A stretch of DNA of 64,000 nt from Amycolatopsis tolypomycina (lineage in GTDB: Bacteria; Actinomycetota; Actinomycetes; Mycobacteriales; Pseudonocardiaceae), in contig NZ_FNSO01000004.1 in NCBI RefSeq assembly GCF_900105945.1, positions 4,340,001 through 4,404,000 on the forward strand, read 5' to 3'. The notes beneath the pieces are model-generated. The model had not been told where the DNA came from and made no database searches. It saw nothing but the letters and a program-made list of their open reading frames with translations. Shown here in pieces: positions 32,811-52,521 of this stretch (the stretch's first letter is position 1; each line of letters starts with the position of its first letter). Made by a program: the position numbers and the translations under genes.

Positions 32811-32824
32811 CTGGAGACCGGGCC

Positions 32825-33727: not shown

Positions 33728-33754
33728 GCCAGCAAGACAACCACAGGAGAACCC

Positions 33755-34535: not shown

Positions 34536-34542
34536 GCGCCGG

Positions 34543-36591: not shown

Positions 36592-38034
36592 GTGACCGGC
36601 TTCGAACGACGTGACGTGCTCCGTGCCCTCGCCACGCTGGGTGTCACCGGCGTGAGCGCGAGCCTGTTCGGCGGTACCGCCGAGGCGGCCGGCGAGAGCC
36701 CGCTGGACCTGGAGTTCGCGGTCACCGAGCAGTTCCGGCCGTTCGACCTGATCGCCCCGAAGTTCGTCCAGCTCGACTCCCCCGCTCGGCCCGGTGCGCT
36801 CGTCAAGACCGGCATCCGGCCGAAGGCGCCCTACGGGACCGTGACCGTGCAGGTCCTCGACGACCGCGCGCCGGTCGTGGCCGGGCTGGCCGGGAATGGG
36901 GTCTCCGTGCTCGGCACCTACGACGCCGCCGCGGGGCGGGCCGGGATCGAGGTCACCACCGCGGCCGGGACCGCCGTGGTCAAGACCGTGGCGGCCGATC
37001 TGCGGGCGCCGTTCGGCTTTGCCGTGGTGGTCAACGAAAACGCCGTCACGGTGCTGGCCGACCGCGGCAGCGGCTGGCGGCCGCTGCTGACCGAGCGTGA
37101 CCAGGTCCGGGCGCGGATCGACCTGCGCGACCCGGCCGTGCTGGGCCGGCTGGGTTACGCCTACGGCAGCCGCGGGGCGGCGCGGCTCGGGCGGGTCCGG
37201 GCCGGGTACTTCGGGCAGGCCGGCGTCCGCGATCCGCACGTCGTGCAGCACGCCGACGGCCGCCCCTACATCCGGGACGGCAAGCTCTACCTGACCATGA
37301 CGAACGCCGGTCTCGGGTTCTTCCAGCAGGCGCACTGGGCCGTGTGGACGCTCGACCTGGCCGATCCGGCCAAGCTGGAGCAGGTGGCCACGCTGTTCTT
37401 CGCGCGCGACGGCGTCGTCCTCGGCGACCACGCGGGCCAGATCGTCCGCGACGGCGACCGCTTCGTCCTGCTGATGAGCTCGTGGGGCGACTTCTCGTTC
37501 GACGGTGTCCACGTGCGCCACACCGTCACCCGCGCCGACGTGCTTTCGGGCGTGCACGTCCTGCCCACCGAGCGGCTGCCGCTGCCGACGACGGTCAGTT
37601 CGTGGGACCCGGCCCTGACGAAGATCGGCGGCCGCTGGCACCTCGCGTTCGTCGAAAGCCCCGCCCAGCAACCGGCGTTCGTGTTCCACCCGGCGCTGGC
37701 GGCCGCCCCGCGCGGCGCGGACTACGACGAAGGGCTGACGCTGCTGGGCGCCGACCTCTCGGTGCAGCAGACCGAGGGGACGATCCTGCAGCGGGTGGGC
37801 GGCCGCTGGTACGTGTTCGCCAGCGACGGCGACGCCCGGGAGTACCCGGTGTACGACCTGCGGATGCGCAAGCTGGGCACGCTGAACGCCCCGTACGGCA
37901 CGAACATCCCGCACCCGATGCTGGTCCGCGTCGGCGGGAGCTGGTGGCTGCCGACCTTCGACGGCACCCAGTACGCGGAGGACGTCCTCGGCTACGGCGG
38001 CCACGGCGACTTCATCCTGATGCGGTCGCGCTAG
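36592..38034 (+). CDS. Tat-exported glycosyl-hydrolase-like beta-propeller protein
   Basis: A 480-residue protein with a twin-arginine signal (FERRDVLRALATLGVTGVSA, cleavage near AEA). The body has repeated beta-propeller-like segments: VRDPHVVQHADGRPYIRDGKLYLTMT, GDHAGQIVRDGDRFVLLMSS, DPALTKIGGRWHLAFVESP and EGTILQRVGGRWYVFASDG. These resemble five-bladed GH43/GH117-type folds, but the catalytic acids cannot be assigned by eye, so the activity is unproven. GTG 36592 follows GGAGGTCAACCT; an ATG at 36538 lacks a ribosome-binding site. The stop shares the palindrome CTAG with the convergent LLM gene. Confidence 0.75.
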   Translation: MTGFERRDVLRALATLGVTGVSASLFGGTAEAAGESPLDLEFAVTEQFRPFDLIAPKFVQLDSPARPGALVKTGIRPKAPYGTVTVQVLDDRAPVVAGLAGNGVSVLGTYDAAAGRAGIEVTTAAGTAVVKTVAADLRAPFGFAVVVNENAVTVLADRGSGWRPLLTERDQVRARIDLRDPAVLGRLGYAYGSRGAARLGRVRAGYFGQAGVRDPHVVQHADGRPYIRDGKLYLTMTNAGLGFFQQAHWAVWTLDLADPAKLEQVATLFFARDGVVLGDHAGQIVRDGDRFVLLMSSWGDFSFDGVHVRHTVTRADVLSGVHVLPTERLPLPTTVSSWDPALTKIGGRWHLAFVESPAQQPAFVFHPALAAAPRGADYDEGLTLLGADLSVQQTEGTILQRVGGRWYVFASDGDAREYPVYDLRMRKLGTLNAPYGTNIPHPMLVRVGGSWWLPTFDGTQYAEDVLGYGGHGDFILMRSR

Positions 38035-38951
38035 CCCCCCATCGCCTCGGCCCGGCGCACCACCTCGCGGCACAGCCGCCCGACGTCGTCCGGGTCGTCG
38101 GTGAACTGGGACGGCTTCAGGCAGAACGTCGTGAAGCCCTGCTCGATCTGCTCGGGCAAGGCGGCCATCGCCTGCCCGAGGTCGGCGCACGATTCCGCGT
38201 CCGGGAACACCGCCCGCGTGCCGCCGACCAGTTCCAGCTCGCGGCCGGGCACCGCGGCCCGCAGCCGGGACAAGTCCGCTGTGGACGGAACGCCGAGCGG
38301 GTGGAAGCCGTGCCCGTAGCGGACGATCCGGTCCAGCAGCCGGTCGTGCAGGCGCTGGCCGCCGAACCACATCCGCGGGCCGTCCGGGCGGTAGGCCTTG
38401 GGTTCGAAGGAGATGTCCTCGAAGGCGAAGAACTCGCCGGAGTACGAGGCCGGCGACGACCGCCACAGCAGGTCCAGGATTTCGAGCTGCTCGTCGAGGA
38501 TCCGGCCGCGCCGCGCGAACGGCACGCCGAGGGCGTCGTATTCGTCGCGGCTCCAGCTGACCGTCGGCTGCACGACCAGGCGGCCCTCGCTCAGCAGGTC
38601 CAGGGTGCCCAGCTCCCGCGCGAGCAGCAGCGGGTGCCGCAGCGGCGCCAGGATCGCCCCGGCGACCAGCCGGATCCGGGAAGTCACCGCGGCGATCGAC
38701 GACAGCAGGGAGAGCGAATGCGGCCACGGCGTCAGCGGATCCTGGTTCCCCGGCAACGCGTACTCGCGCGGGTTGGCCATGAGGCCCCGGTCCGAGGCGT
38801 CCGGGCCGAGCACGACGTGTTCACTGATCATCACGGCGTCGAACCCGGCGTCCTCGGCCTCGCGGGCCCACCGCACCAGCGTCGGCAGGTCCCGGCCCGA
38901 GGTCAGCGTCCAGTTCTCGCTGAGGATCAGCAGCATCCGGGGCGCGGTCAT
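38031..38951 (-). CDS. LLM class F420-dependent oxidoreductase
   Basis: A 306-residue luciferase-like protein with the TIM-barrel start (LLILSENWTLTSGRDLPTLVRWAREAEDAGFDAVMISEHV) and the family segment LVAGAILAPLRHPLLLARELGTLDLLSEGRL. Actinobacterial members generally use coenzyme F420. It overlaps the permease gene by 4 nt and is the second gene of that operon, which has regulon operator site 1 upstream. It could oxidise an imported substrate or the C-N bond of a gamma-glutamylated amine; the reaction is unknown. Confidence 0.85.
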   Translation of the reverse strand: MTAPRMLLILSENWTLTSGRDLPTLVRWAREAEDAGFDAVMISEHVVLGPDASDRGLMANPREYALPGNQDPLTPWPHSLSLLSSIAAVTSRIRLVAGAILAPLRHPLLLARELGTLDLLSEGRLVVQPTVSWSRDEYDALGVPFARRGRILDEQLEILDLLWRSSPASYSGEFFAFEDISFEPKAYRPDGPRMWFGGQRLHDRLLDRIVRYGHGFHPLGVPSTADLSRLRAAVPGRELELVGGTRAVFPDAESCADLGQAMAALPEQIEQGFTTFCLKPSQFTDDPDDVGRLCREVVRRAEAMGG

Positions 38952-40378
38952 GCGCGCGCCGCGTGCCGGAAGGCGAGCACCAGCCCGAGGGCGAAGACCA
39001 CGACCGCCGCGTACGGCGCGTAGATGATCGGCGCGCTCACCTTGTAGACGGCGCCGAAGATCGCGGCGCCGGTGACGACGATGCCGACCGTGCCCGCCAG
39101 GTACACCGCCCAGCGGCGCCGGTGGTCGCGCAGGCCGCGCAGCGCACCCGCCGACATCAGCAGGTAGATCACGGCGAGGGAGAACCCGCCGAAGGTCGAG
39201 CCCCAGCTGAACATCGCCACGTAGTGCGGCATCTCCGGCTGCGCGAGCAGGCCGGTCCAGGTGGCGGTGAGGACGATGACCACCGCGTGGAACGCCACGA
39301 CGACCGCGGCCGCGGCCAGCGGGGTGCCGCGGCCGCTCACCTTGCCCAGCGCCGCGGGCAGCCGCCGGTCGCGGGCGAGGGCGAACATGCCCCGCGACGC
39401 CGACACCGCGCACCCGATCAGCACCGCGAGCATGTCGAGCACCACGACCAGCTCCAGCAGCCGCCGGACGGCGACGGAGCCGAACCCGCCGTCGGAGACC
39501 GGGCCGGCGAGCCCGAACAGCGGGGCGCCCGCGTTCTTGCCGAGCGCGTCGAGGTCGAAGTGGTAGCCCGCGACCTGGCTGTAGGAGCCGATGACGTAGA
39601 AGACGGCCACGGTGAGCACCGAGATCAGCACCGCGCGCGGGATGTCCCGCTTCGGGTGCGCGGTCTCTTCGCCCAGGTTGGCCGCGGTTTCGAAGCCGGT
39701 GAAGAGCAGCACGCCGTACAGCACACCGAACAGGACGCCGCCGAAGCCCTGCGGGGACGAGGCCGGCGTGAACGCCTTGCCGACGTCGTCGGCCGCGCCG
39801 GCCTTCACGATCACCACGACGAAGAACGCGAGCACGACGGCGAAGGACACGAGCGCGAGGACCAGCTGGGCCCGCGTCGACAGGGCGACCCCGAGGTACA
39901 GCACGACCGCGAGCCCGAGCAGCAGGAGCAGGTCCCAGCCGGCCTCGGGCAGCGGCGTGACGCCGAACTCGGCCTGCAGGGTGTCGTGGATCGTGCCGCC
40001 GATCATCACCAGGATCCCGGCGCCGAGCGCGAGAATGCCCGCGTAGTACAGGAATCCGGCGGCGGCGCCGATGCGCTTGCCGAGACCGTCGGTGACGTAG
40101 TCGTAGAGGGAGCCGGCGGAGTGGATGCGCTTGGTGTACTCGGAAACGATCCAGCCGAGGCCCAGCACGCCGACCGCGGCGATCACCACCGAGAGGGGTG
40201 CGGCCGCGCCCGCGCCGCTGCCGGAGGCGTTGAGCCCGACCAGGAGCGGGACCAGGAAGGCGATCGAGAAGACCGGCCCGATCACGCCGACGGACTGCGC
40301 GATCGCGTCCACCAGCTTGAGGGAACCACCGAGCCGGTGGCCGGTGGTCACGTTTTCCGAAACGGCATGGTCGACCAT
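38948..40378 (-). CDS. APC family amino acid/amine permease
   Basis: A 476-residue membrane transporter with 12 predicted helices. It has the APC-type start (LKLVDAIAQSVGVIGPVFSIAFLVP) and GVLLFTGFETAANLGEETAHPKRDIPRAV, a signature region of the superfamily. ATG 40378 follows GAGGAGG at good spacing. It is first in a two-gene operon with the LLM oxidoreductase. Operator site 1 lies at 40411-40429 just upstream. The position next to a gamma-glutamyl ligase system is like PuuP, so an amine substrate is plausible. Confidence 0.87.
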   Translation of the reverse strand: MVDHAVSENVTTGHRLGGSLKLVDAIAQSVGVIGPVFSIAFLVPLLVGLNASGSGAGAAAPLSVVIAAVGVLGLGWIVSEYTKRIHSAGSLYDYVTDGLGKRIGAAAGFLYYAGILALGAGILVMIGGTIHDTLQAEFGVTPLPEAGWDLLLLLGLAVVLYLGVALSTRAQLVLALVSFAVVLAFFVVVIVKAGAADDVGKAFTPASSPQGFGGVLFGVLYGVLLFTGFETAANLGEETAHPKRDIPRAVLISVLTVAVFYVIGSYSQVAGYHFDLDALGKNAGAPLFGLAGPVSDGGFGSVAVRRLLELVVVLDMLAVLIGCAVSASRGMFALARDRRLPAALGKVSGRGTPLAAAAVVVAFHAVVIVLTATWTGLLAQPEMPHYVAMFSWGSTFGGFSLAVIYLLMSAGALRGLRDHRRRWAVYLAGTVGIVVTGAAIFGAVYKVSAPIIYAPYAAVVVFALGLVLAFRHAARA

Positions 40379-40410: not shown

Positions 40411-40429
40411 AATCGTACGGGTTCAAACG
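40411..40429 (-). promoter_or_regulatory. Regulon operator site 1 (permease operon)
   Basis: On the minus strand it reads CGTTTGAACCCGTACGATT, matching the five-site consensus CGTTTGRNNCCGNACGAT. It ends 33 nt before the permease start. A partly overlapping divergent start of a second copy, CGTTTGGATC, runs on the plus strand from 40428. Confidence 0.75.
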
Positions 40430-40444
40430 TTTGGATCGCAATAG

Positions 40445-41152
40445 TCAGCAGGCGAAGATTTCGTTCAGGTAGGCCGAAACCAGCGTCTCGGTGCGCCGCC
40501 GGGCGTCCGCGGCGAGCCGGTCGGCGTCCGCGACGAGGTCCGCCGGGCGCAGCCCGAGCCCGCGCGCCTGGGCCGCGCCGCCGCCTGCGACCCAGCGCCG
40601 GATGCCGGCCGGCGTCACCTCGGGGTGGAACTGCACGCCGAGGCTGCGGCCGATCCGGTAGGCCTGCGGGGCCGCGGCGTTGCGGGCCAGCTCGACCGCC
40701 CCGGGCGGCACGGTGAACCGGTCGAAGTGCCACTGGAACCACGGTCCCGACGGCACCAGGTCCGGCCGGTCGGACTCGACGCCGACCCAGCCGATCTCCG
40801 GCGACGGCGACCGCGTGACCGTGCCGCCGAGCGCGCGGGCCAGCGCCTGCGCGCCGAAACAGATGCCGAACACCGCGCCGCCGCCGGCCACCGCGTCGGC
40901 GAGCCACCGCAGTTCCGGCGCCAGCCACCGGCCGATCCGGGCGTCGTCGACGCCGGCACTCCACGGCGCGCCCAGCGGCACCAGCAGGTCATAGGCGGCA
41001 CTGTCCGGAAAGGACGGTTCGACGTCCGGCGCGTGGTGGCGGTCCTCGGGCACGACGACGAGTTCGTCGACCTGCCAGCCGAGGTCGCGCAGCGCGGCGC
41101 CGACGTACCCGGGGTCCGACAGCGCGTCGTGGCAGACGCACAGCGCGCGCAT
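40445..41152 (-). CDS. Type 1 glutamine amidotransferase
   Basis: A 235-residue class I amidotransferase domain protein. The nucleophile is in FGICFGAQALARALGG and the histidine-glutamate pair in GVQFHPEVTP. It is the third gene of the GS-like/P450 operon, with a 1-nt overlap to the P450. GATase-like and GS-like proteins are paired in aniline-type and amine gamma-glutamylation pathways. There the GATase hydrolyses or recycles the gamma-glutamyl amide. Direct use of glutamine for another enzyme is an alternative. Confidence 0.83.
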   Translation of the reverse strand: MRALCVCHDALSDPGYVGAALRDLGWQVDELVVVPEDRHHAPDVEPSFPDSAAYDLLVPLGAPWSAGVDDARIGRWLAPELRWLADAVAGGGAVFGICFGAQALARALGGTVTRSPSPEIGWVGVESDRPDLVPSGPWFQWHFDRFTVPPGAVELARNAAAPQAYRIGRSLGVQFHPEVTPAGIRRWVAGGGAAQARGLGLRPADLVADADRLAADARRRTETLVSAYLNEIFAC

Positions 41153-42417
41153 CAGGTGGTCTCGACCCGCACGGGGAACTGCTTGATGCCGTTGACGAAG
41201 TTGCTGCGCACCCGCCGGACGTCCCCGGCGCGGTCGATGCGGCGCAGGCGCGGCAGCAGCGTCTCGAACATCAGCCGGATCTCCATCCGGGCCAGGTTGT
41301 TGCCCAGGCAGAAGTGCGGGCTGCCCTTGCCGAACGTGACGTGGTCGTTGGGCTTCCGCGTGACGTCGAAGGTGTAGGGGTCGTCGAAGACGTCTTCGTC
41401 GCGGTTGCCGGAGGCGAACCACATCACGACCTTCTCCCCCGCCTTGATGTGCCGGCCGCGCAGTTCGGCATCGCGGGTGGCCGTGCGCCGGAAGTGGTAG
41501 ACCGGGCTCGCCCAGCGCAGCATCTCCTCCACGGCCACCGGGATCCGCTCCGGCTCCGCCTGCAGCAGCGCCAGCTGGTCGGGGTTGTCCAGCAGCGCCA
41601 GCATGGAATGGCTGATCGCGTGCCGGGTGGTTTCGTTGCCCGCGACCACCAGCAGCAGGAAGTAGTTGTCGAACTCCGTCGCGGTCAGCGGCTCCCCGTC
41701 GACCGGGACGCGGTTGACCAGCCTGCTGACGAGGTCTTCGCCGTCGCCGCCGCGGCGCTGCCGGGCCAGTTCGCGCCCGTACTCGAAGACCTCGAGCGAC
41801 GCGGGCGAGCGGAACGGCAGGTGCTTGTAGCGGTCGCTTTCGGCGTCCCCGAGCAGGACGTCGGCGTAGTCCGGGTCCGTGTTGCCGATGATCCGGTTGC
41901 CCCAGGCGATCAGCCGGCCGGTGTCGCGGGCGGGCACGTCGAGCATCCGGGCCAGCACCTGGATCGGGAAGTCCGCGCTGATCTCCTTGACGAAGTCGAA
42001 TTCGCCCCGGCGGAGCGCGGCGTCGACCGTGGCCTCGGTGAGGCCGCGCAGGAACTCCTCGTACTTCTTCAGCGTCTGGCCGCCGAAGTCGCGTTGCAGC
42101 AGCTTGCGCAACGCCCGGTGACGGACGCCGTCGGATTCCAGCATGGACCGCCGCAGCTCGGCCAGGTCGTCGTCGTGGACCTCTTCGAGGTTGACGTACC
42201 CGGTCGAGGTGAACGTTTCGGCGTCCCGGTCGACGGCGACGATGTCCTCGTGCCGGGTCAGCGACCAGAAACCGGAGTTCGGCGCCGGTTCCGGGTTCCA
42301 GTGGACCGGTGCTTCCCGGCGGAGCACGTCGAACCGGGACCAGGCCTCGTTGCGCTCGAAGACGCCGAGGTCGGTGAGGTCGACCTGGGCGGCGGTCAGG
42401 GGGTGCGCGGTGGTCAT
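41152..42417 (-). CDS. Cytochrome P450
   Basis: A 421-residue bacterial class I P450. The I-helix oxygen-activation motif is AGNETTRH, the ExxR motif is EEMLRW and the heme loop is FGKGSPHFCLGNNLAR with the axial cysteine. The ferredoxin and ferredoxin reductase it requires are probably those at 50831-52217, encoded in the same regulon rather than next to the P450. It sits between the gamma-glutamyl ligase and the amidotransferase. It may hydroxylate the aromatic ring, or the carbon next to nitrogen; both are inference. Confidence 0.92.
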   Translation of the reverse strand: MTTAHPLTAAQVDLTDLGVFERNEAWSRFDVLRREAPVHWNPEPAPNSGFWSLTRHEDIVAVDRDAETFTSTGYVNLEEVHDDDLAELRRSMLESDGVRHRALRKLLQRDFGGQTLKKYEEFLRGLTEATVDAALRRGEFDFVKEISADFPIQVLARMLDVPARDTGRLIAWGNRIIGNTDPDYADVLLGDAESDRYKHLPFRSPASLEVFEYGRELARQRRGGDGEDLVSRLVNRVPVDGEPLTATEFDNYFLLLVVAGNETTRHAISHSMLALLDNPDQLALLQAEPERIPVAVEEMLRWASPVYHFRRTATRDAELRGRHIKAGEKVVMWFASGNRDEDVFDDPYTFDVTRKPNDHVTFGKGSPHFCLGNNLARMEIRLMFETLLPRLRRIDRAGDVRRVRSNFVNGIKQFPVRVETT

Positions 42418-42426
42418 GGCCCTCCT

Positions 42427-43776
42427 CTACAGGTGGTAGGCGTACTCGCGGAACTCCCAGTCGGTGACGTACCGGGAGAACCGCTCCAGCTCGTTGCGCT
42501 TGTAGGCGAGGAACGCCGTGACGAACCGGGGGCCGAGCAGCTCGGCGAACGCCGTGTCGGCTTCGAGGGCGTCGAGCGACGCGCCCAGGTCCGCGGGCAG
42601 CTTCGGGGCCTTCGCCGGGTCGTAGCCGTAGCCCTCCAGGGGTGCCGGTGCGGCCAGGCCGTCCTGGATGCCCAGGTACGCGGCGGCGAGCAGGCCGGCC
42701 GTCACCAGGTACGGGTTGGCGGTGGCGTCGCCCTGGCGCAGCTCCAGCCGGGAAGCCCGGCCGCGTTCCGGCGGGATGCGGATCATCGCGCTGCGGTTGT
42801 CGAGACCCCAGTCGATCAGCCACGGGGCCAGGGTGTCCGGGCCGAACCGCTTGGCGGAGTTGACCGTCGGGTTGGCCAGCGCCGACAGCGCGGGGGCGTG
42901 CGCGAGGATTCCGGCGATGGCGGCGTGGGCGACCTTCGAGAGGCCGTATTCGCCCGCCGGGTCGTCGAACAGCGGCCGCCCGTCGTCGTCCACTGTGGAG
43001 AAGTGCAGGTGGAAGCCCGAGCCGCCTTCGTCGTTGAACGGCTTGGCCATGAACGTGGCCAGCTTGCCCTCGCGGCGGGCCAGCTCCTTGACGGCGGTCT
43101 TGAACCGGAAGGCCCGGTCAGCGGCGTCGAGGGCCGCGGAGTGCCAGAGGTTGATCTCGAACTGGCCGCTGCAGAACTCGTGGTTGGCCGTCACCACGTC
43201 CAGCCCGTAGTCCGCCAGCGAGCGCAGGGACCGCAGCAGCAGGTTCTCGGGGTCGCCCTTGCTGCCGGAGACGTAGACGTTGCCGGGTGCCTCGCCGTAG
43301 CGGCGCCAGCCGCCTGCCGCGTCCGGTTCGAGCACGTAGAACTCCAGCTCGGGGCCGACCACCGGGCGCATGCCGAGCTCGGCGAACCGGGCCAGCACCT
43401 GCCTGAGGACCTGGCGCGGGCTCTCCGGCGCCGGCGTCCCGTCCGGGTCGAAGACGTCGGCGAGGCAGTGCGCGACGCCGGGCTCCCACGGCACGTCGGT
43501 GAGGGTGGCCAGGTCGGGGAACGCGACGACGTCGGGCAGGCCGTCGGCGAGGCCGCCCGCTCCCAGCTCGACGACGTCGCCCATCGGGCTGGTGCCGTAG
43601 ACCGTGCGGCAGAACGCGACGCCGTCGCCGAGTGTCCTGGCGAAGTTCGCGACCAGCACGTCGCGGCCGCGCTCGGTGCCGATGAAGTCGGGGTAGCCCA
43701 GCCGGACGACGTCGATACCGCGGCCGCTCAGCTCGGCCGCGGCGGCCGCGAGGGCGTCCTCGTCGAAGTGACCCAC
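42427..43776 (-). CDS. Glutamine synthetase family protein, probable gamma-glutamyl-amine ligase
   Basis: A 449-residue GS-fold protein. It has the beta-Grasp N-terminus, then GPELEFYVLEPD, NHEFCSGQFEINL, FNDEGGSGFHLHFS (GSGxHxH type) and PTVNSAKRFGPDTLAPW. It is more like PuuA, GlnA3/GlnA4 and aniline gamma-glutamyl ligases than housekeeping GlnA, judging by context and the lack of an adenylylation-type C-terminus. GTG 43776 follows GGAGGTGTC. It heads the operon with the P450 and amidotransferase. Operator site 2 begins 16 nt upstream. It should attach glutamate to an amine with ATP. Confidence 0.85.
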   Translation of the reverse strand: MGHFDEDALAAAAAELSGRGIDVVRLGYPDFIGTERGRDVLVANFARTLGDGVAFCRTVYGTSPMGDVVELGAGGLADGLPDVVAFPDLATLTDVPWEPGVAHCLADVFDPDGTPAPESPRQVLRQVLARFAELGMRPVVGPELEFYVLEPDAAGGWRRYGEAPGNVYVSGSKGDPENLLLRSLRSLADYGLDVVTANHEFCSGQFEINLWHSAALDAADRAFRFKTAVKELARREGKLATFMAKPFNDEGGSGFHLHFSTVDDDGRPLFDDPAGEYGLSKVAHAAIAGILAHAPALSALANPTVNSAKRFGPDTLAPWLIDWGLDNRSAMIRIPPERGRASRLELRQGDATANPYLVTAGLLAAAYLGIQDGLAAPAPLEGYGYDPAKAPKLPADLGASLDALEADTAFAELLGPRFVTAFLAYKRNELERFSRYVTDWEFREYAYHL

Positions 43777-43791
43777 GACACCTCCTGGGTT

Positions 43792-43810
43792 CGTTTGAGT
43801 CCGAACGATA
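43792..43810 (+). promoter_or_regulatory. Regulon operator site 2 (gamma-glutamyl ligase operon)
   Basis: CGTTTGAGTCCGAACGATA. It lies just upstream of the ligase GTG in the divergent region shared with the acetoacetate-decarboxylase-like gene. The copy at 43860 is in opposite orientation, so each promoter has its own site. Confidence 0.8.
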
Positions 43811-43859
43811 GCCCTGGCCGCGGACGCTGACAAGCCTTTCCCCCGGTCAGTCGGCGCGG

Positions 43860-43878
43860 TATCGTGCGGACCCAAACG
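43860..43878 (-). promoter_or_regulatory. Regulon operator site 3 (acetoacetate-decarboxylase-like gene)
   Basis: On the minus strand it reads CGTTTGGGTCCGCACGATA. It ends 16 nt before GTG 43895, overlapping the likely promoter or 5' leader, and mirrors site 2. Confidence 0.8.
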
Positions 43879-43894
43879 ACTTTCGGGAGGACTG

Positions 43895-44686
43895 GTGGCC
43901 GGCTTCTTCTACCCCCGCACGGCGAGCGGGCAGGCGTCGCTCATCCCGTCGCCACCCTGGTTCTACTCGGGCGACCTGCTCACCGTGGAGTACCGGACCG
44001 ACCCCGCCCGCGTCGCCGAGCTGCTGCCCGAGCCGCTGACGCTCGCCGACGAGGACCCGGGCGCGGTGGCGCTGATCTGGGCCGACTGGCAGTCGTGCTC
44101 GACCTCGCGGGAAGAGCTCCTCGATCCGGTGCGCTCGCAGTACAAGGAGGCGTTCGTCGTGGTCCGGTGCGCGTTCGAGGGCCGGACCTACTCCCGGTGC
44201 GTCTACATCTGGGTCGACAAGGACTTCGCGATCGCCCGCGGCATCCACCAGGGCTACCCGAAGAAGCTCGGCTCGATCTGGCAGACCCGGCCGCACCCCT
44301 TCGGCCCGGCCCCGCAGCTCCGCCCGGGCGCGAGGTTCGGCGCGACCCTGGCCGCCGGCGACCGGCGGCTCGCCGAAGCCGTCCTGACGCTGACGGCGGA
44401 GTCGCCGACGAACGGGTTCGTCAACGGGCACCCGATGGCGCACCACCGCGTCCTGCCCGGCATCGGCCGGGGCGAGGGCGACGCGCACGCGGAGCTGATC
44501 GAGTCCGGCGCGAGCGCGTTCGAGGGCGGCCAGGCCTGGCGCGGCGACGTCGAGCTGCGGCTGTTCGAAGCGCCCACCGAGGAGCTGGCCCGGCTCGAGG
44601 TCCACGAGATCATCGGCGGCTACTACCGCCAGGTCGGCGTCACCTGGGACGGCGGGCGGCGGCTGGCCGAGCTGCCGTCCGTTTGA
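43895..44686 (+). CDS. Acetoacetate decarboxylase family protein
   Basis: A 263-residue protein of the acetoacetate decarboxylase fold, with typical segments PWFYSGDLLTVEYRTDPARVAELLPEPL and GIHQGYPKKLG. One lysine of the last segment may correspond to a Schiff-base lysine, but hand alignment is not decisive. Many members are not decarboxylases but act as hydrolases, dehydratases or aldolases. GTG 43895 follows GGGAGGA. It shares its regulon operators with the catabolic genes. Its role in the pathway is unknown. Its stop lies inside operator site 4. Confidence 0.78.
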   Translation: MAGFFYPRTASGQASLIPSPPWFYSGDLLTVEYRTDPARVAELLPEPLTLADEDPGAVALIWADWQSCSTSREELLDPVRSQYKEAFVVVRCAFEGRTYSRCVYIWVDKDFAIARGIHQGYPKKLGSIWQTRPHPFGPAPQLRPGARFGATLAAGDRRLAEAVLTLTAESPTNGFVNGHPMAHHRVLPGIGRGEGDAHAELIESGASAFEGGQAWRGDVELRLFEAPTEELARLEVHEIIGGYYRQVGVTWDGGRRLAELPSV

Positions 44687-44698
44687 GGCCGTACGATC
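44680..44698 (+). promoter_or_regulatory. Regulon operator site 4 (before the MarR gene)
   Basis: CGTTTGAGGCCGTACGATC. It overlaps the end of the decarboxylase-like gene and ends 5 nt before the ATG of the MarR regulator, a position suited to autorepression. Confidence 0.75.
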
Positions 44699-44703
44699 GG
44701 GGC

Positions 44704-45225
44704 ATGCCGGACGGATACGGTCTCGCCGAAACCGAAAAGGCGATGTCCGCGCACATCGCCAAGCTCGCGCTCGACCTGCCCGCCGCGGCGGCGCTGTCCA
44801 GCCTGTACCGCGCGGCCAACGCCGTCCGCAACCACCTCACCAACGCCGTGCTGCGCGAGCACGACCTGAGCTGGACGGGCTTCGTCGTCCTGTGGTGCGT
44901 GTGGATCTTCGACGGCTTGGAGACGCGGCACGCGGCGACAGTCGCGGCGATCTCCAAGGGCACGCTGACCGGGGTGGCCAAGACCCTGGAGGGCCGCGGC
45001 CTGCTGCGCCGCGAGGTCGACGCCGCCGACCGGCGGCTGGTGCACCTGGTCCTCACCGACGAAGGCCTGGCCCTGATGGAGGACCTCTACCCGCGGTTCA
45101 ACGCGGCCGAGGCCGAGGTGGTGGCCCGCATCAGCGGCGGCAAGCTGACCACGATCACCAACGGCCTGCGGACCATGGTCCAGACGGTCGAGGACAAGTC
45201 CTGGGAAACCCCCCAGGCCGACTGA
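44704..45225 (+). CDS. MarR family transcriptional regulator
   Basis: A 173-residue winged-helix protein with the MarR core (LSWTGFVVLWCVWIFDGLETRHAATVAAISKGTLTGVAKTLEGRGLLRREVDAADRR). The recognition helix and the D-x-R wing are intact. It lies in the centre of five operons that share a palindromic operator, and a copy of that operator sits 5 nt before its own start. It is therefore the best candidate for their regulator. HpaR, the known repressor of homoprotocatechuate genes, is also a MarR protein. The ligand may be an aromatic acid or amine; this is inference. Confidence 0.87.
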   Translation: MPDGYGLAETEKAMSAHIAKLALDLPAAAALSSLYRAANAVRNHLTNAVLREHDLSWTGFVVLWCVWIFDGLETRHAATVAAISKGTLTGVAKTLEGRGLLRREVDAADRRLVHLVLTDEGLALMEDLYPRFNAAEAEVVARISGGKLTTITNGLRTMVQTVEDKSWETPQAD

Positions 45226-45229
45226 CCCG

Positions 45230-45342
45230 CGCCCCAATGTGGCGTTGGTTGCGTCCAACGCACCGAACGCCACATTGGGTGCGCTCAACGCACCGAACGC
45301 CACATTGGGTGCATCAGACGCACCGAACGCCACATTGGGGCG
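45230..45342. repeat. 30-bp-period repeat array between convergent genes
   Basis: Starts CGCCCCAATGTGGCGTT at 45230-45246. It has AACGCCACATT copies at 45266, 45296 and 45326 and ends with the inverted boundary AACGCCACATTGGGGCG. The same family is at 29194-32810 with the same boundaries. The boundary arms can form a large hairpin (17 bp). It lies between the MarR stop and the PuuD-like stop, so it may terminate both transcripts. The final 11 codons of the PuuD-like gene are within it. Confidence 0.85.
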
Positions 45343-46030
45343 TTTGAGACCGGGCCGCGGCCACGAACGCGGCGAACAGGGCCGCCTGAGCGGGGTCGGT
45401 CGCGGCCGTGTCCTCCGGGTGCCACTGCAGCCCGAGGAACCAGCCGCGGGCGGACGGCAGCTCGACCGCCTCGGGCACGCCGTCCGCGGCCTCGGCGACC
45501 ACCTCGAGCCCGGCGCCGAGCCGGCCGAGGCCCTGGTGGTGGAAGCACGACACCTCCAGCGCGTCGCCGGTGAGCGAGGCCAGGAGCGTTCCCGGCGCGG
45601 TCTTGGCGAGATGCACCCGGTGCCGGTGCCCGGGCAGGTCCTGCACGACGTCGCCGCCGAGGGCCACGTTCACGACCTGCGCGCCGCGGCAGACCGCCAG
45701 CAGCGGCCGGCCCGCTTTCAGTGCCCAGGACGCCACCGCGAGATCGAAGGCGTCCTGGTCCACGTCGACGTCGTACTCGGCCGGGTGCGATCCCTGGCCC
45801 GCCCAGCTCGGGTGCAGGTCGCCGCCGCCGGGCAGCAGTACACCGTCCGCAATGGACAGTCGCGACGGGACCTCGCCGGGGTCGGCCGGGTGCATCAGCA
45901 GCGGTTCGCCACCGGCCGCGTAAACCGCTTCAAGCAGGGCCCGTGCCCCGACTTCGGCCCGGTAGCGCAGGGCGGACGCGCTCGCCGAGAACCGCGCCGG
46001 GACGACGATCAGCGGCCGCCGGTCAGCCAT
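45314..46030 (-). CDS. Gamma-glutamyl-gamma-aminobutyrate hydrolase-like (PuuD-like, peptidase C26)
   Basis: A 238-residue class I GATase-fold hydrolase with nucleophile LAVCRGAQVVNVALGGD, FHHQGL and the His-Glu motif LQWHPED. In the Puu pathway this enzyme removes glutamate from gamma-glutamyl carboxylic acids. It overlaps the aldehyde dehydrogenase gene by 8 nt, matching the PuuC-PuuD step order. Its last residues (SQTPQCGVRCV) are encoded by the 30-bp repeat array. The native end was probably near VAAAR and the repeat now supplies the stop. Confidence 0.86.
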   Translation of the reverse strand: MADRRPLIVVPARFSASASALRYRAEVGARALLEAVYAAGGEPLLMHPADPGEVPSRLSIADGVLLPGGGDLHPSWAGQGSHPAEYDVDVDQDAFDLAVASWALKAGRPLLAVCRGAQVVNVALGGDVVQDLPGHRHRVHLAKTAPGTLLASLTGDALEVSCFHHQGLGRLGAGLEVVAEAADGVPEAVELPSARGWFLGLQWHPEDTAATDPAQAALFAAFVAAARSQTPQCGVRCV

Positions 46031-47501
46031 GGTGGATCCAGGTGGTCTTGAGGTCGCGGTACTCGTCGAGGGCGTGCCGGGACTTGTCGCGGCCGAAGCC
46101 GGACAGCTTCACCCCGCCGAACGGGACCGACAGGTCGCCTTCCTCGTAGCAGTTCACCCACACCGTCCCGGCCCGCAGCCGCCGCGAGATCCGGTGCGCG
46201 GCGCCGAGGTCCGCCGTCCACAGCGCGGCGGCGAGGCCGTACGGCGTGTCCCCCGCGACGCGGATCGCCTCCTCCTCGTCGCCGACCACCTGCACGGCCA
46301 GCACCGGACCGAAGATCTCCTCGCGCAGCACGGGGTTGCCGGGTGCGCAGCCGGTCAGGACGGTCGGTTCGAGGTAGCTCCCGCCGGTCCCGGCCAGCAC
46401 CTGCCCGCCGCCGGTGACGAGCCGGGCGCCCTGGCCGACGCCGCGGCGGACGGCGTCACGCACGCGGTCGAGGTGGGCCGCGTCGACCAGCGGCCCCATC
46501 TTCGTGTCCGGCAGCAGCGGGTCGGCGGGGAACCAGCCCGAACTGGTGGCGACGACCCGGTCCAGCACCCGGTCGGCGACGTCGCGGTGCACGACCAGCC
46601 GCGATCCGGCGGTGCACATCTGGCCGGAGTTGAAGAAGATCGCCCAGGCCGCGGTGTCGGCGGCGGCGTCGAGGTCGGGCGCGTCGGGCAGGACGATGTT
46701 CGGCGACTTCCCGCCGAGCTCGAGGTAGACGCGCTTGAGGTTGCTGTCGGCGGCGTACCGCAGGAAGTGCCGCCCGACCTCGGTGGACCCGGTGAAGGTG
46801 AGGACGTCCACGCCCGCGTGCTCGCCGAGCCGCCGTCCGACGACGGCGCCGTCCCCGGACAGGACGTTGAGCACGCCCGGGGGCAGGCCCGCCTCGGCCC
46901 CGAGCGCGGCGACGCGCTGCATCGACAGCGGGCTGCGTTCCGACGTCTTGAGCACGACCGTGCAGCCCGCGGCGAGGGCGGGCGCGAACTTCCAGCCGGC
47001 CAGGGTGAGCGGGAAGTTCCACGGCACGACGGCGGCGACCACCCCGGCGGGCTCGCGGGTGACCAGGGCCAGCTCGCCCTCGGCCGTCGGGGCGACCTCG
47101 CCGTGGTCCTTGTCGGCGAGCTCACCGTAGAACCGGAGGGTCCGGACGAGCGCGCGCAGCTCGATGTCGTGCGCCTGCCGGATCGGCTTGCCCATTTCGA
47201 GGCTGACCAGCAGGGCGAGTTCGGCCCGGTGCGCGTCGACCAGCACGGCGAAGCGCTGCAGGATCTCGCCGCGTTCGCGCGGGTGCAGCCGCGGCCACGG
47301 TCCGTGGTCGAACGCCTGCCGCGCGGCCGCGACGGCCCGGTCGGTGTCGTGCTCGCCGGCCCAGGCCAGCTCGGTCAGCAGCGCGCCGTCCCGCGCGGAC
47401 CGCACCGGGCGGGTTCGCGCGGCCTCGCGGGGCTCCCCGGCCACGAACACCCCCTCCGGTGCTTTCACCGTGGCGGCGCGCGCCAGCCAGTCCGTTGCCA
47501 C
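46023..47501 (-). CDS. Aldehyde dehydrogenase (PuuC-like)
   Basis: A 492-residue NAD(P)+-dependent aldehyde dehydrogenase. The fold signatures are PWNFPLTLAGWKFAPALAAG, FTGSTEVG and LELGGKSPN with the catalytic Glu, and GQMCTAGSR with the catalytic Cys. GTG 47501 follows GGAGGA at a good distance; GTGs at 47522 and 47525 are alternatives. It is coupled to the PuuD-like gene. In the context it should oxidise a gamma-glutamyl-amino aldehyde or an arylacetaldehyde. Operator site 5 lies upstream, in the divergent region with the hpa operon. Confidence 0.88.
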   Translation of the reverse strand: MATDWLARAATVKAPEGVFVAGEPREAARTRPVRSARDGALLTELAWAGEHDTDRAVAAARQAFDHGPWPRLHPRERGEILQRFAVLVDAHRAELALLVSLEMGKPIRQAHDIELRALVRTLRFYGELADKDHGEVAPTAEGELALVTREPAGVVAAVVPWNFPLTLAGWKFAPALAAGCTVVLKTSERSPLSMQRVAALGAEAGLPPGVLNVLSGDGAVVGRRLGEHAGVDVLTFTGSTEVGRHFLRYAADSNLKRVYLELGGKSPNIVLPDAPDLDAAADTAAWAIFFNSGQMCTAGSRLVVHRDVADRVLDRVVATSSGWFPADPLLPDTKMGPLVDAAHLDRVRDAVRRGVGQGARLVTGGGQVLAGTGGSYLEPTVLTGCAPGNPVLREEIFGPVLAVQVVGDEEEAIRVAGDTPYGLAAALWTADLGAAHRISRRLRAGTVWVNCYEEGDLSVPFGGVKLSGFGRDKSRHALDEYRDLKTTWIHHG

Positions 47502-47554
47502 GACCGGATCCTCCACCTGCACCACTCCCTTGACCCAGACCAGGACGGCGGATA

Positions 47555-47573
47555 CGTTTGGATCCGAACGATA
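47555..47573 (+). promoter_or_regulatory. Regulon operator site 5 (ALDH and hpa operons)
   Basis: CGTTTGGATCCGAACGATA, the most symmetric copy: CGTTTGGATCC faces CGTTCGGATCC on the other strand. It lies 17 nt before the hpaE ATG and within the divergent promoter region of the other aldehyde dehydrogenase operon. Confidence 0.8.
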
Positions 47574-47589: not shown

Positions 47590-49053
47590 ATGAACACCGC
47601 GCTCGTCGCCGGAACCGCCGTCGACACCCGCCACTGGATCGGCGGCCGCCGGGTCGCTTCCGCGGACACGTTCGAGGACCTGTCCCCGATCGACGGCCGC
47701 CCGATCGCCCGGATCGCCCGGGGCGGACCCGAGGAAGCCGACGCCGCGGTCGCCGCCGCGAAGGCCGCCTTCCCCGCCTGGGCCGCCACACCCCCGGCCG
47801 ACCGCGCCCGGCTGCTGCGCGCCATCGCCGACGGTGTCGAGAAACGCCTCGAAGAACTCGCGATCGTCGAGACGACCGACAACGGCGCCCTGATCCGCTC
47901 GCACCGCCGGGGCGTCATGCCGCGGGTGGCCCACAACTTCCGGTTCTTCGCCGACTACCTCGAGCACGAGCTCGGCCACCCGGACTTCGAGACCCGCGGC
48001 CACCGCAACCACGTCACCTGGGACCCGGCGGGCGTCTGCGCGCTCATCTCGCCGTGGAACGCCCCGCTCATGCTGGCCACCTGGAAGGTCGCCCCGGCAC
48101 TGGCCGCGGGGAACACCGTGGTGCTCAAGCCGTCCGAGTGGTCGCCGCTGTCCGCGTCGCTGCTCGCCGACATCGCCGCCGACGCCGGGCTGCCCGACGG
48201 CGTCCTCAACGTCGTCCAGGGCATCGGTGAAGAAGCGGGCGCCGCGCTGGTCGCCCACCCGGACGTCCGGCGCATTTCCTTCACCGGCTCGGTGCCCACG
48301 GCCAAGGTGATCGCCCGCGCGGCGGCGGCCAACCTCACGCCGCTTTCCCTGGAGCTGGGCGGGAAGTCGCCGTTCGTCGTGTTCGCCGACGCCGACCTGG
48401 ACCTCGCCGTCGCCAACGCCGTCGAGCAGTACGACAACGCCGGGCAGGTCTGCCTGTCCGGGACCCGGCTCTACGTCGAGGAGTCCATCCGCGACGAGTT
48501 CGTCCGGCGGTTCCTGGAGCGTGCCGGGCAGCTGAAGCAGGGCGACCCGCGGGACGAAGCCACCGACATCGGCCCCTCCATCCACCCCGACCACGTGTCC
48601 CGGGTGGACGGTTTCGTCCAGCGCGCCAAGCAGGCCGGGGCGAAGGTGCTGCTGGGCGGCGGACCGAACACCGACCTCGGCGGGCTCTACTACCGGCCCA
48701 CGCTCTTCACCGACGTCGACCCGCACAGCGAAATCGCCACCGAAGAGGTCTTCGGGCCGGTCCTCGTGCTGCACACCTTCCGCGACGAGGACGAGGTCGT
48801 GGCCGCCGCCAACGACTCGGCGTTCGGGCTGGCCGCGATGCTCTTCACCGGCGACCCCGAACGCGCCGGGCGCGTCGCCGCCCGGCTCGTCGCCGGGACC
48901 GTGTGGACGAACTGCTTCTTCGTCCGCGACCTGCGTGCCCCCTTCGGCGGCGCGCGGCAGTCCGGGATCGGCCGGGAGGGCGGTACCTGGTCGTTCGACT
49001 TCTACTGCGAGGTCAAGAACACCGTGTTCGCACCGGCTGGCTGGAGGTCCTGA
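47590..49053 (+). CDS. hpaE: 5-carboxymethyl-2-hydroxymuconate semialdehyde dehydrogenase
   Basis: A 487-residue aldehyde dehydrogenase with SPWNAPLMLATWKVAPALAAG, FTGSVPTAK, LELGGKSPF and GQVCLSGTR. It is assigned to HpaE by its direct coupling to an extradiol dioxygenase and a fumarylacetoacetate hydrolase family gene, the order of homoprotocatechuate meta-cleavage operons. It oxidises the ring-cleavage semialdehyde to the dicarboxylate. The ATG is preceded by GGAGGG. Its stop overlaps the next ATG (TGATG). Operator site 5 precedes it. Confidence 0.87.
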   Translation: MNTALVAGTAVDTRHWIGGRRVASADTFEDLSPIDGRPIARIARGGPEEADAAVAAAKAAFPAWAATPPADRARLLRAIADGVEKRLEELAIVETTDNGALIRSHRRGVMPRVAHNFRFFADYLEHELGHPDFETRGHRNHVTWDPAGVCALISPWNAPLMLATWKVAPALAAGNTVVLKPSEWSPLSASLLADIAADAGLPDGVLNVVQGIGEEAGAALVAHPDVRRISFTGSVPTAKVIARAAAANLTPLSLELGGKSPFVVFADADLDLAVANAVEQYDNAGQVCLSGTRLYVEESIRDEFVRRFLERAGQLKQGDPRDEATDIGPSIHPDHVSRVDGFVQRAKQAGAKVLLGGGPNTDLGGLYYRPTLFTDVDPHSEIATEEVFGPVLVLHTFRDEDEVVAAANDSAFGLAAMLFTGDPERAGRVAARLVAGTVWTNCFFVRDLRAPFGGARQSGIGREGGTWSFDFYCEVKNTVFAPAGWRS

Positions 49054-49970
49054 TGGGTGAAATCGTCGGCGCCGGGCTGCTCGCGCACGTCCCCACCATC
49101 GCCCTGCCCGAAGCCGAACGGCGGGCCCTCAACCACGGCGAGGACACCACCCTCGTCGCCGGGCTGCGGCAGCTGCGCACCGAGGTCTTCGAGACCCTCG
49201 ACTACGACACCGTCGTCGTGCTCGACTCGCACTGGGCGACGACCGTCGAGTTCGTGGTGACCGCGCAGGACCGGCGCTCGGGCCTGTTCACGTCGGAGGA
49301 GCTGCCGCGGGGCATGTGCCGTCGTCCGTACGACTTCCCCGGCGACCCGGAGCTGGCCCACGCCGTCGCCGCCCGGGCCGACGCGCACGGGACGTGGATC
49401 ACCGCGATCGACGACCACCACCTGCCGATCTTCTACGCCACGACCAACCTCTGGGAGTACCTGGGCCAGGGCTTGCCGGACAAGCGCTGGGTGTCGATCG
49501 GCGTGTGCCAGACCGCCGACACCGAGGACAGCCTGCGGCTCGGCCGGGCCCTCGGCGACGCGATCTCGCGACTCGACCGCAAGGCGCTGCTGATCGCCTC
49601 CGGGGCGATGAGCCACACGTTCTGGCCGCTGCGGCAGCTGCGCGCGCACGAGGCCGCCGGGGTCGAGCACATCTTCAGCCCGGAGGCCGCGGCCGCCGAC
49701 GCCGAACGGCTCGCCTGGTTCGCCGGCGGCGACCACGAGCGCGTGCTCGCGACGATGCCGGAGTTCCTGCGGTTCAAGCCGGAGGCCCGGTTCGGGCACT
49801 ACCTGATGATGATCGGCGCGCTCGGCGAAGGCGACTGCACCGCGAAGTCCCGCCAGTACGGCGAATACGAGAACTCCGTCGGCACCGGCCAGGTGCACCT
49901 GTGGTTCGACCGGCCCGCCGACGGCTTCCCCCGCCCCCGCCGAACCCACCGCACCGAGGTGTCACTGTGA
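49053..49970 (+). CDS. hpaD: 3,4-dihydroxyphenylacetate 2,3-dioxygenase (class III extradiol, LigB type)
   Basis: A 305-residue non-heme iron dioxygenase of the LigB superfamily. AHVPTIALPE at the N-terminus gives one likely metal histidine, VVVLDSHWATTVEF a second segment, and IDDHHLPIFYATTNLW a third. GAMSHTFWPLR is also conserved. The enzyme opens the homoprotocatechuate ring next to a hydroxyl. Context (HpaE upstream and HpaG downstream with overlapping codons) supports this substrate over gallate or protocatechuate. The GTG of the next gene overlaps its stop. Confidence 0.87.
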   Translation: MGEIVGAGLLAHVPTIALPEAERRALNHGEDTTLVAGLRQLRTEVFETLDYDTVVVLDSHWATTVEFVVTAQDRRSGLFTSEELPRGMCRRPYDFPGDPELAHAVAARADAHGTWITAIDDHHLPIFYATTNLWEYLGQGLPDKRWVSIGVCQTADTEDSLRLGRALGDAISRLDRKALLIASGAMSHTFWPLRQLRAHEAAGVEHIFSPEAAAADAERLAWFAGGDHERVLATMPEFLRFKPEARFGHYLMMIGALGEGDCTAKSRQYGEYENSVGTGQVHLWFDRPADGFPRPRRTHRTEVSL

Positions 49971-50815
49971 CCGAACACCGCCGCATCCTGCTCGACGGCG
50001 CCGTCGTCGACGTCGTCCGCGACGGCGACCGCCTGCGCGCCGCCGACGGCCGGGAAGTCCTGGCCGACGACGCGGTTCACCTGCCGCCGGTCGTGCCGTC
50101 GAAGATCATCGCCGTGCACCTCAACCACCGCAGCCGGGTGACCGAGTTCGGCACGAAACTCCCGGCGGCGCCGACGTACTTCCACAAGCCGACGTCGTCG
50201 CTCAACGCGCACCACGGCGCGGTGGTCCGGCCCGAAGGCTGCAAGTGGCTCAACTACGAGGGCGAGATCGCCATCGTGATCGGCCGCGTCACCCGCAACG
50301 TCTCGCCGAAGGAAGCCGCGGACCACATCGCGGGCTACACCATCGCGAACGACTTCGGGCTGCACGACTTCCGCGACACCGACGCCGGCTCGATGCTGCG
50401 CGTCAAGGGGTCCGACACGCTGTGCCCGCTCGGCCCCGGCCTGGTCGAGGACTGGGACTTCCGCGGCAAGGCGATCCGCACCCTCGTCAACGGCGAAGTC
50501 CGGCAGGAGGGCAGCACCGACGAGATGGAGTGGGACATGCACTACCTCGTCGCGGACATCGCCCGCACCATCACCCTCTTCCCCGGCGACGTCCTGCTGT
50601 CCGGCACCCCGGCGGGCTCGCGCCCGGTGCGGCCCGGCGACGTGGTTTCCGTGGAGGTCGACGGGCTCGGGACCCTGACCAACGACATCGTCGCCGGCCC
50701 GGTGCCGATCCGCACGGACGTCGGCGCGCAGCCGACGGAGAGCGAAGAAGTGCTCTCGACCGCGCTGGGCGGCGACTGGGAGTTCCGCGGCGTCCGGCCG
50801 CCGCGCCGATCCTGA
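49967..50815 (+). CDS. hpaG: Fumarylacetoacetate hydrolase family protein, HpaG-type isomerase/decarboxylase
   Basis: A 282-residue FAH-fold protein. KIIAVHLNHRSRVTEF, PTYFHKPTSSL and LNYEGEIAIVIGR hold metal-ligand acids, followed by GYTIANDFGLHDFRD and LFPGDVLLSGTPAG. HpaG isomerises and decarboxylates the muconate product of the HpaD/HpaE steps. It is single-length, with one FAH domain, unlike the two-domain enterobacterial HpaG. The GTG start overlaps the dioxygenase stop. The later genes of the route (HpaH hydratase, HpaI aldolase) are not in the window. Confidence 0.85.
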   Translation: MTEHRRILLDGAVVDVVRDGDRLRAADGREVLADDAVHLPPVVPSKIIAVHLNHRSRVTEFGTKLPAAPTYFHKPTSSLNAHHGAVVRPEGCKWLNYEGEIAIVIGRVTRNVSPKEAADHIAGYTIANDFGLHDFRDTDAGSMLRVKGSDTLCPLGPGLVEDWDFRGKAIRTLVNGEVRQEGSTDEMEWDMHYLVADIARTITLFPGDVLLSGTPAGSRPVRPGDVVSVEVDGLGTLTNDIVAGPVPIRTDVGAQPTESEEVLSTALGGDWEFRGVRPPRRS

Positions 50816-50830: not shown

Positions 50831-51046
50831 ATGCACATCGTCGTCGATCTGAACAAGTGCCAGGACCACGGGCAGTGCGTCTTCTCGGCGCCGTCGGTGT
50901 TCTCTTTGGACGGACAAGGGAAACTGTCCTTCCGCGCGACGGCTTCGGGAACCTACGTGTCGCCGCCGCTGGGCGAGGACCACCGCGACGACGTCGAAGA
51001 AGCCGCCGACGTCTGCCCGCTGCAGGCGATCACGGTCGAGGACTGA
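50831..51046 (+). CDS. Small [3Fe-4S]/[4Fe-4S]-type ferredoxin with a His in the cluster motif
   Basis: A 71-residue ferredoxin with Cys10, His13, Cys16 and Cys62 (KCQDHGQC, then DVCPLQAI). A histidine occupies the place of the second cysteine, as in some P450-associated actinobacterial ferredoxins. ATG 50831 follows GGGAGTGG; the GTG at 50819 is less likely. It lies 1 nt before the ferredoxin reductase gene and in the hpa operon. It is the probable electron donor to the regulon P450 at 41152-42417. Confidence 0.87.
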   Translation: MHIVVDLNKCQDHGQCVFSAPSVFSLDGQGKLSFRATASGTYVSPPLGEDHRDDVEEAADVCPLQAITVED

Positions 51047-52275: not shown

Positions 52276-52521
52276 TCAGCGGTTGGAGGCGATGAAATAC
52301 ACGACGACCCCGATCAACGCGAGCACTTCGCTCAGCACGAAGGTCGAGTACCCCAACGTCTGAAGTTTTCCGCGCATTTCCGGTTGGCGTGCGGTACCAT
52401 TGATGACGGCCGCGAAGATGAGACCGACACCGATTCCCGGGCCGATCGCTCCCAGGCCGTAGCCGATGGCGGCGAGGCCGGGGTTGAGGTTGACCGTCTG
52501 GGCCAGAACTGTTTCACTCAT
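52276..52521 (-). CDS. atpE: ATP synthase F0 subunit c, orphan copy
   Basis: An 81-residue hairpin membrane protein with the classic c-subunit features. These are a glycine-rich first helix (GYGLGAIGPGIGVGL), the RQP loop (residues 45-47) and the second helix LSEVLALIGVVVYF, whose Glu65 is the proton-binding carboxylate. All essential residues are present. No other atp gene is in the window, so it is separated from any atpIBEFHAGDC operon; it could be a paralogue or a displaced sole copy. The upstream ribosome-binding site is AAGGGGA. The SDR operon terminator is about 230 nt upstream. Confidence 0.93.
   Translation of the reverse strand: MSETVLAQTVNLNPGLAAIGYGLGAIGPGIGVGLIFAAVINGTARQPEMRGKLQTLGYSTFVLSEVLALIGVVVYFIASNR

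Follow-up and report, generated by a model that had tools for sequence, protein, structure and literature searches.

Five copies of a predicted MarR operator in a probable aromatic-amine gene set of Amycolatopsis tolypomycina

In Rhodococcus jostii RHA1, several aromatic-catabolic operons are reported to be controlled by the MarR-family repressor CouR, with inverted repeats at the promoters and one site serving a divergent pair (PMC4737184). The genes for homoprotocatechuate meta-cleavage likewise have a MarR-family regulator, HpaR (PMC7180172). Here we describe a comparable arrangement in Amycolatopsis tolypomycina. Within a stretch of 64,000 nucleotides (nt) of contig NZ_FNSO01000004.1 (positions 4,340,001 to 4,404,000), which we call the window, five copies of one sequence motif precede genes of a 14-gene set that lies at 38.0-52.2 kb and includes a marR gene. 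The CouR box, cATTGA-N5-TCAATg, overlaps the -35 region, whereas the motif found here is of the CGTTTGGnnCCAAACG type and lies at -10; the pathway controlled by CouR is also a different one (PMC4737184). The sites given for HpaR are TTAA-N4-TTAA (PMC7180172), as against CGTTTGRNNCCGNACGAT in the window. Assignment of the window regulator as HpaR was rejected because of this difference in operator type and because of its score with TIGR02337 (40.4 bits, cut-off 121.2 bits). In its predicted mode of action the regulator resembles both CouR and HpaR; by its operator it is neither, and by its score it is not HpaR. Searches of open-licence literature returned no description of this gene set or of the operator; two of the papers returned contain the letters CCAAACGA.

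The enzymes encoded in the set also have described counterparts. In the aniline system GoaS/NpaA1, a glutamine-synthetase-like (GS-like) ligase is proposed to tag the amine, and an amidotransferase-like protein and an oxygenase accompany it (PMC11335346). The GS-like ligases GlnA2-GlnA4 of Streptomyces are also proposed to tag an amine. The window differs from these gamma-glutamyl amine ligase systems in that its oxygenase is a cytochrome P450 and its ring-cleavage genes are hpa-like. The order of steps in the Puu putrescine pathway includes a GS-like ligase, an aldehyde dehydrogenase (ALDH) and a PuuD-like hydrolase, and all three kinds of protein are found in the window. However, the window proteins all score below the equivalog cut-offs, and the P450 and the ring-cleavage genes are additional. 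A standard hpa meta pathway was rejected as well: the HpaD- and HpaE-like proteins fall below their cut-offs, a search of the genome for HpaI gave nothing at E<=0.001, and HpaB (one match, 268 against a cut-off of 480.2) and HpaH (three matches, the best 253.8 against 351.5) are matched only below theirs. The regulon looks like one of a familiar type, to which possibly a new pathway is attached, the pathway being the more novel part.

An earlier reading of the window from its letters alone (the sequence-only reading) had proposed that five sites share one consensus. When the window was scanned, all five (S1 to S5, Table 1) matched CGTTTGRNNCCGNACGAT without a mismatch, their starts shifted by at most 1 nt from those first given. 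This pattern had been derived from the five sites themselves, and the search was therefore repeated with S5 alone as the seed. At three or fewer mismatches four of the five sites were recovered, S4 being missed, while shuffled sequences gave a mean of 0.04 and at most 1 match; the claim that the repeat is far beyond chance held up. The core had been called a near-palindrome. Related palindromes are indeed conserved in other loci, but the window sites themselves are imperfect, matching 4 (S1, S4), 5 (S2, S3) or 7 (S5) of 8 dyad pairs. It had also been said that each site lies at the promoter of a different operon. Five gene starts are preceded by sites, but S2 and S3 fall in one common divergent region; S5 is common to the HpaE-like gene and the divergent ALDH-PuuD operon. 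S4 overlaps the stop codon of the acetoacetate-decarboxylase-family (ADC-like) gene, and its distance from the marR start is 6 nt, not 5 as claimed.

The whole genome of 10.36 Mb was scanned with the pattern at two or fewer mismatches. This returned 18 matches, namely the five sites with no mismatch and 13 with exactly two, and no further place within one mismatch; the reversed control pattern gave 9 matches under the same rule. A high genome-wide background, which the sequence-only reading had named as evidence against itself, was therefore not found. The imperfection of the window palindromes could suggest that the motif arose by chance or is a dispersed repeat with no regulatory meaning, as could the behavior of the degenerate pattern, which at three or fewer mismatches was no commoner in the window than chance would have it (6 matches, shuffle mean 3.8). 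The signal resides in the exact matches and not in looser ones. Against such an origin stand the uniqueness of the motif in the genome, the conservation of its position in many loci and its rarity upstream of other open reading frames (ORFs). This explanation was rejected, being refuted as far as sequence can refute it, and we give it virtually no credence.

The window proteins were mapped on 30 loci, part of which showed similar gene sets with related promoter palindromes; a relaxed palindrome, GTTYGRNNYCRAAC, was set after this mapping and before the later loci were retrieved. These came from GTDB genomes scanned by means of an alignment of MarR sequences, from which the best 80 of 562 relatives were taken. 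Matches in tblastn below 60 bits were dropped, ferredoxin excepted. Also excluded were loci in which the pathway genes numbered less than three, and three more in which a stretch of marR was repeated (65 reduced to 62). Loci with at least three pathway genes came from Actinospica, Nocardioides, Pimelobacter, Mycolicibacterium, Nakamurella, Paractinoplanes, Gordonia, Actinomadura, Kutzneria, Streptomyces, Microtetraspora, Yinghuangia and others. Under the counting rule the marR and permease genes of the window are not operon heads, and S1 and S4 lie outside the head counts.

Across all 62 loci, GTTYGRNNYCRAAC was present at one or no mismatch upstream of 189 of 288 operon heads. Sixty permuted palindromes gave a mean of 2.9 (largest 42), and shuffled upstream regions a mean of 1.05 (largest 3). 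In the 52 loci retrieved after the palindrome had been set, a site was found at 162 of 245 heads, compared with 9 of 301 upstream regions of other ORFs in the same loci; 49 of the 52 had at least one site and 47 at least two. Two points tell against a regulon conserved to this degree: three of the 52 loci have no site at all, and loci of one genus or of related species were counted several times, so that the operon heads are not independent.

In Actinospica a site is found at the same junction as S1. In one genome some 4.5 Mb separate the marR homologue from the P450-amidotransferase-permease-LLM part, yet this part too is preceded by a site, which stands before the permease gene (G142, locus L072); in another the ALDH-PuuD part is on a different contig from marR, and again a site precedes it (G126, L073). 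Plasmid pSLUN1 of Streptomyces lunaelactis (L166) has sites, at one or no mismatch, before the genes for an M14 carboxypeptidase, the permease and the ADC-like protein, as well as between the GS-like gene and marR and between the ALDH and HpaE-like genes. On a Streptomyces canus plasmid (L167) sites are found between the GS-like and ferredoxin genes and before the permease gene, with marR about 18 kb off. The sequence-only reading had held that the sites unite the genes from about 38.0 to 52.2 kb as one regulon. Related sites at the corresponding promoters of many loci bear this out, and a predicted regulon of about this extent, conserved in dozens of other actinobacterial loci, is supported. 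The M14 zinc carboxypeptidase gene of pSLUN1 (8276-9729) may be an extra target, since an exact palindrome lies roughly 80 nt 5' of its start.

Plasmid pABRDHK22 of Novosphingobium sp. EMRT-2 (L168, 9201-19663) carries GS-like, P450, LigB dioxygenase, ADC-like, FAH and ALDH genes. It was rejected as an operator-bearing relative: its MarR protein aligns over just 44 residues (34%), no promoter site of this kind was found on it, and the two matches at one or no mismatch fall within its GS-like gene.

When 188 sites were aligned along the direction of transcription, TTG stood out some 27 nt upstream, followed by TAT(C) extending into the palindrome. A promoter pair was defined as TTGnnn with at least 4 matches to TTGACA, a spacer of 16-19 and TAnnnn, in which TA had to start between 7 nt before the 14-bp core and the first base of the core. 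A -35/-10 pair of this kind, its -10 overlapping the palindrome or adjoining it, was found at 65 of the 188 heads; the shuffled control gave a mean of 3.8 and at most 10. Pairs were recognized at HpaE (31 of 32), ferredoxin (4 of 4), GS-like (22 of 39), ALDH (4 of 22), P450 (2 of 7) and ADC (2 of 34) heads, and by this rule at none of the marR (23), PuuD (8), amidotransferase (10), LLM (8) or permease (1) heads. In the window, S2 overlaps the promoter-like sequence TTGTCA-17-TATCGT of the GS-like gene (43833-43805, minus strand), and S5 overlaps TTGACC-17-TACGTT of the HpaE-like gene (47530-47558); the predicted -10 elements are at 43805-43810 and 47553-47558. An overlap of this kind fits repression by occlusion, and for these two promoters occlusion of the -10 region is a well-supported prediction.

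We propose that the MarR protein (44704-45225) would bind as a dimer to the near-palindrome, which in relatives is roughly ATCGTTTGGnnCCAAACGAT, and would thereby cover the operons' -10 regions and exclude RNA polymerase. Since marR has a site of its own, the protein may regulate its own gene. MarR would be released by an inducer, which is probably either the amine substrate or an aromatic compound formed early in the pathway, and the 38.0-52.2 kb set would then be switched on together. At some sites, however, the protein might act as an activator or as a road-block; S4, for example, might merely tune marR from within an ADC-marR transcript. The heads that showed no pair count in favor of this and against general occlusion, namely all 23 for marR, 32 of 34 for ADC and 18 of 22 for ALDH; within the window, where the test covered S2, S3 and S5, no -35/-10 was recognized at the ADC-like (S3) and ALDH heads. 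HpaR, also of the MarR family, is reported to activate one promoter (PMC7180172). At the HpaE and GS-like promoters, on the other hand, the palindrome and the -10 sequence overlap or are contiguous, and a dimer bound there should block. Activation or road-blocking seems to us unlikely.

As the sequence-only reading had stated, marR is the only regulator gene recognized among the 14. Its product scores above the cut-off for the MarR domain (PF01047), and an AlphaFold2 model (mean pLDDT 89.7) has the MarR fold, the best Foldseek matches being MarR proteins that include the DNA-bound MftR and HpaR. A survey of 200 genomes from the family found homologues of the protein (E<=1e-20) in 44; the exact operator pattern occurs in four of the 200, and all four have a homologue. 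Among 80 genomes of the genus, a close ortholog (E<=1e-60) and the operator coincide in the same two, those of the window and of Amycolatopsis bullii (G539). Among plasmid records, four have an ADC-like gene at 60% identity or above, and these are the same four actinobacterial records that carry this MarR; a fifth plasmid match to MarR is a Niallia record at 37.5%. The motif was also present within about 320 nt of 14 of 42 MarR homologues that have fewer than three pathway genes nearby, whereas permuted motifs gave a mean of 0.55 and at most 8. In five loci of the same genus (L063, L064, L079, L080, L081), a MarR homologue of 48-50% identity has an adjoining related site, and no pathway gene was recognized.

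Two ORFs named by eye, one PaaX-like (35653-36489, plus strand) and one LysR-like (54446-55462, plus strand), flank the regulon from outside. The sites might define one regulon and yet be bound by one of these, or by an unlinked protein, with marR merely a target. Since S4 precedes marR, this gene is a target on either reading. Lentzea-type loci with MarR and a GS-like gene have no site at one or no mismatch near marR, which weighs against MarR as the binding protein, as does one of four phylum genomes that have the strict palindrome and lack a MarR homologue. The strict palindrome was found in just four of 296 phylum genomes, the window genome not among them, and a homologue in three of the four (25 of 296 overall); the phylum-wide comparison was set aside because the palindrome was too strict to help. 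Most of the comparison loci were retrieved by MarR similarity, for which reason the presence of MarR in them is not evidence. The co-occurrence in the 80 genus genomes is free of this bias; together with that in the family genomes and on the plasmids, and with the motif near homologues with few pathway genes, it argues for MarR. We regard binding by another protein as distinctly unlikely, and judged from sequence it is very likely that MarR is a repressor acting at the predicted operators.

The A. bullii locus is of interest here, having a marR gene 97% identical to that of the window and an adjoining operator with the same 18 bases as S4 (L082, 9700-10600). No other window gene was recognized in this 20.5-kb locus, and a genome-wide search, made for the ADC-like protein alone, gave a best match of 38%. 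Upstream lies a frameshifted ADC-like remnant of about 53 bp, which differs by 4 substitutions and the insertion of one base; a cluster was therefore probably lost there. The unchanged operator (18 of 18 bases) was rejected as proof of selection, since by our estimate it is not significant at this divergence, and on its own it is weak evidence.

The set is likely catabolic, and probably breaks down an aromatic amine. In the pathway we propose, an imported arylethylamine of the tyramine or dopamine type would be joined to glutamate by the GS-like ligase; the P450, with the ferredoxin and its reductase, would oxidize the glutamylated amine; the PuuD-like hydrolase and the ALDH would free the product and oxidize it to the acid; and the HpaD-, HpaE- and HpaG-like enzymes would cleave the ring. 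This would resemble gamma-glutamylation and P450 oxidation of an arylethylamine feeding a homoprotocatechuate-like meta-cleavage. In true glutamine synthetase the Glu of the GYEAP motif has a role. The GS-like protein has Leu at this position and the glutamate-methylamine ligase 9qur has Trp; absence of the Glu was taken as a mark of gamma-glutamyl amine ligases, and glutamylating activity is predicted. With gamma-glutamylputrescine synthetase (NF045547) the protein scores 258.8 bits, below the cut-off of 650. MppR has aldolase-dehydratase activity. The ADC-like protein resembles MppR, and may therefore stand in for the lower pathway.

The pathway may instead act on another amine of the aniline, alkylamine or polyamine type, a possibility that we do not favor but take seriously. 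The combination of a GS-like protein, an amidotransferase-like protein and an oxygenase is reminiscent of the aniline system (PMC11335346), and the best NCBIfam model for the ALDH is PuuC. VanA-like Rieske oxygenase genes occur in seven loci, in or beside the cluster (L085-L089, L099, L100), and reductase-like genes in eight (these and L097), as judged by a family scan of the L100 proteins only. PA5508 is said to prefer catecholamines (PMC6478659), and other amines are named for it in PMC11335346. Two points weaken the arylethylamine reading: PA5508 (4hpp) is distant from the GS-like protein (118.6 bits, last of 35 matches listed), and the hpa-like and puu-like proteins score under the NCBIfam equivalog cut-offs. 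In its favor, the hpa-type models that best fit the ring-cleavage proteins are those of HpaD, HpaE and HpaG, as would be expected for a catechol bearing an acetate side chain. Moreover, a tyrosine-decarboxylase-like gene lies on the same strand directly behind the GS-like gene in four of the 62 loci and behind the P450 gene in one, and another is in the HpaE-like operon of S. lunaelactis; the family scan of these genes was on L054 and L166 only, with scores below the NCBIfam cut-off. On the S. canus plasmid, folate genes (folD-like, purU, aminomethyltransferase; 32463-35323) adjoin the pathway genes and may serve to demethylate methylated substrates.

Coordinates of the sites and genes are collected in Table 1. 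A small ORF beyond the set (52276-52521, minus strand) resembles ATP synthase subunit c by eye. The window also has arrays of units of about 30 bp with AACGCCACATTGGG, at 29197-29303, 32764-32807 and 45233-45339, comprising 10 copies at one or no mismatch where 0 were found by chance. An inverted copy opens two of the three arrays, and one array lies directly 3' of marR, before the converging puuD-like gene.

Table 1. Putative operators and genes of the 38.0-52.2 kb set (window coordinates)
Feature	Position	Strand	Remarks
Operator S1	40412-40429	-	exact match; 33 nt 5' of permease ATG
Operator S2	43792-43809	+	exact match; 15 nt 5' of GS-like gene
Operator S3	43861-43878	-	exact match; 16 nt 5' of ADC-like gene
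Operator S4	44680-44697	+	exact match; 6 nt 5' of marR ATG (44704)
Operator S5	47555-47572	+	exact match; 17 nt 5' of HpaE-like gene
F420/LLM-class oxidoreductase	38031-38951	-	TIGR03619 above cut-off; start taken from frame
APC-family permease	38948-40378	-	family scan
Class-I glutamine amidotransferase-like protein	40445-41152	-	PF00117
Cytochrome P450	41152-42417	-	best solved relatives of CYP125/CYP124 type
GS-like ligase	42427-43776	-	Leu at Glu of GYEAP motif
ADC-like protein, MppR-like	43895-44686	+	family scans
MarR-family regulator, proposed repressor	44704-45225	+	PF01047 37.7 bits, cut-off 24.6
PuuD-like Peptidase_C26 protein	45314-46030	-	family scans
ALDH	46023-47519 (start codon approximate)	-	best NCBIfam model PuuC, below cut-off
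HpaE-like semialdehyde dehydrogenase	47590-49053	+	553.5 bits, cut-off 638.35
LigB-type extradiol dioxygenase, HpaD-like	49053-49970	+	HpaD 130.5 bits, cut-off 315.95
FAH-family protein, HpaG-like	49967-50815	+	best hpa-type model HpaG
Small ferredoxin	50831-51046	+	family scan
Ferredoxin reductase	51048-52217	+	family scans

Taken as a whole, the explanation that the five sites are MarR operators, through which a gene set for a pathway of the arylethylamine type would be jointly repressed, is one in which we have high confidence. A more specific proposal is put forward tentatively, as a conjecture that may well prove wrong: that this is an undescribed actinobacterial route in which glutamate-tagged P450 oxidation of an arylethylamine leads to a homoprotocatechuate-type catechol, an MppR-like ADC protein takes the place of HpaH and HpaI in the lower pathway, one MarR protein acts at an operator overlapping -10, and the whole has spread horizontally. 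For the spread, the proposal draws on the single regulon-bearing genome among the 80 of the genus, the Streptomyces plasmids, and the Novosphingobium set with its other MarR protein and no operator. The analysis assigns a predicted regulator and its putative operator to a gene set common to many actinobacterial genera. Whatever compound releases MarR should reveal the substrate, which makes the pathway directly testable, and the promoter-operator unit could serve as a sensor of aromatic amines.

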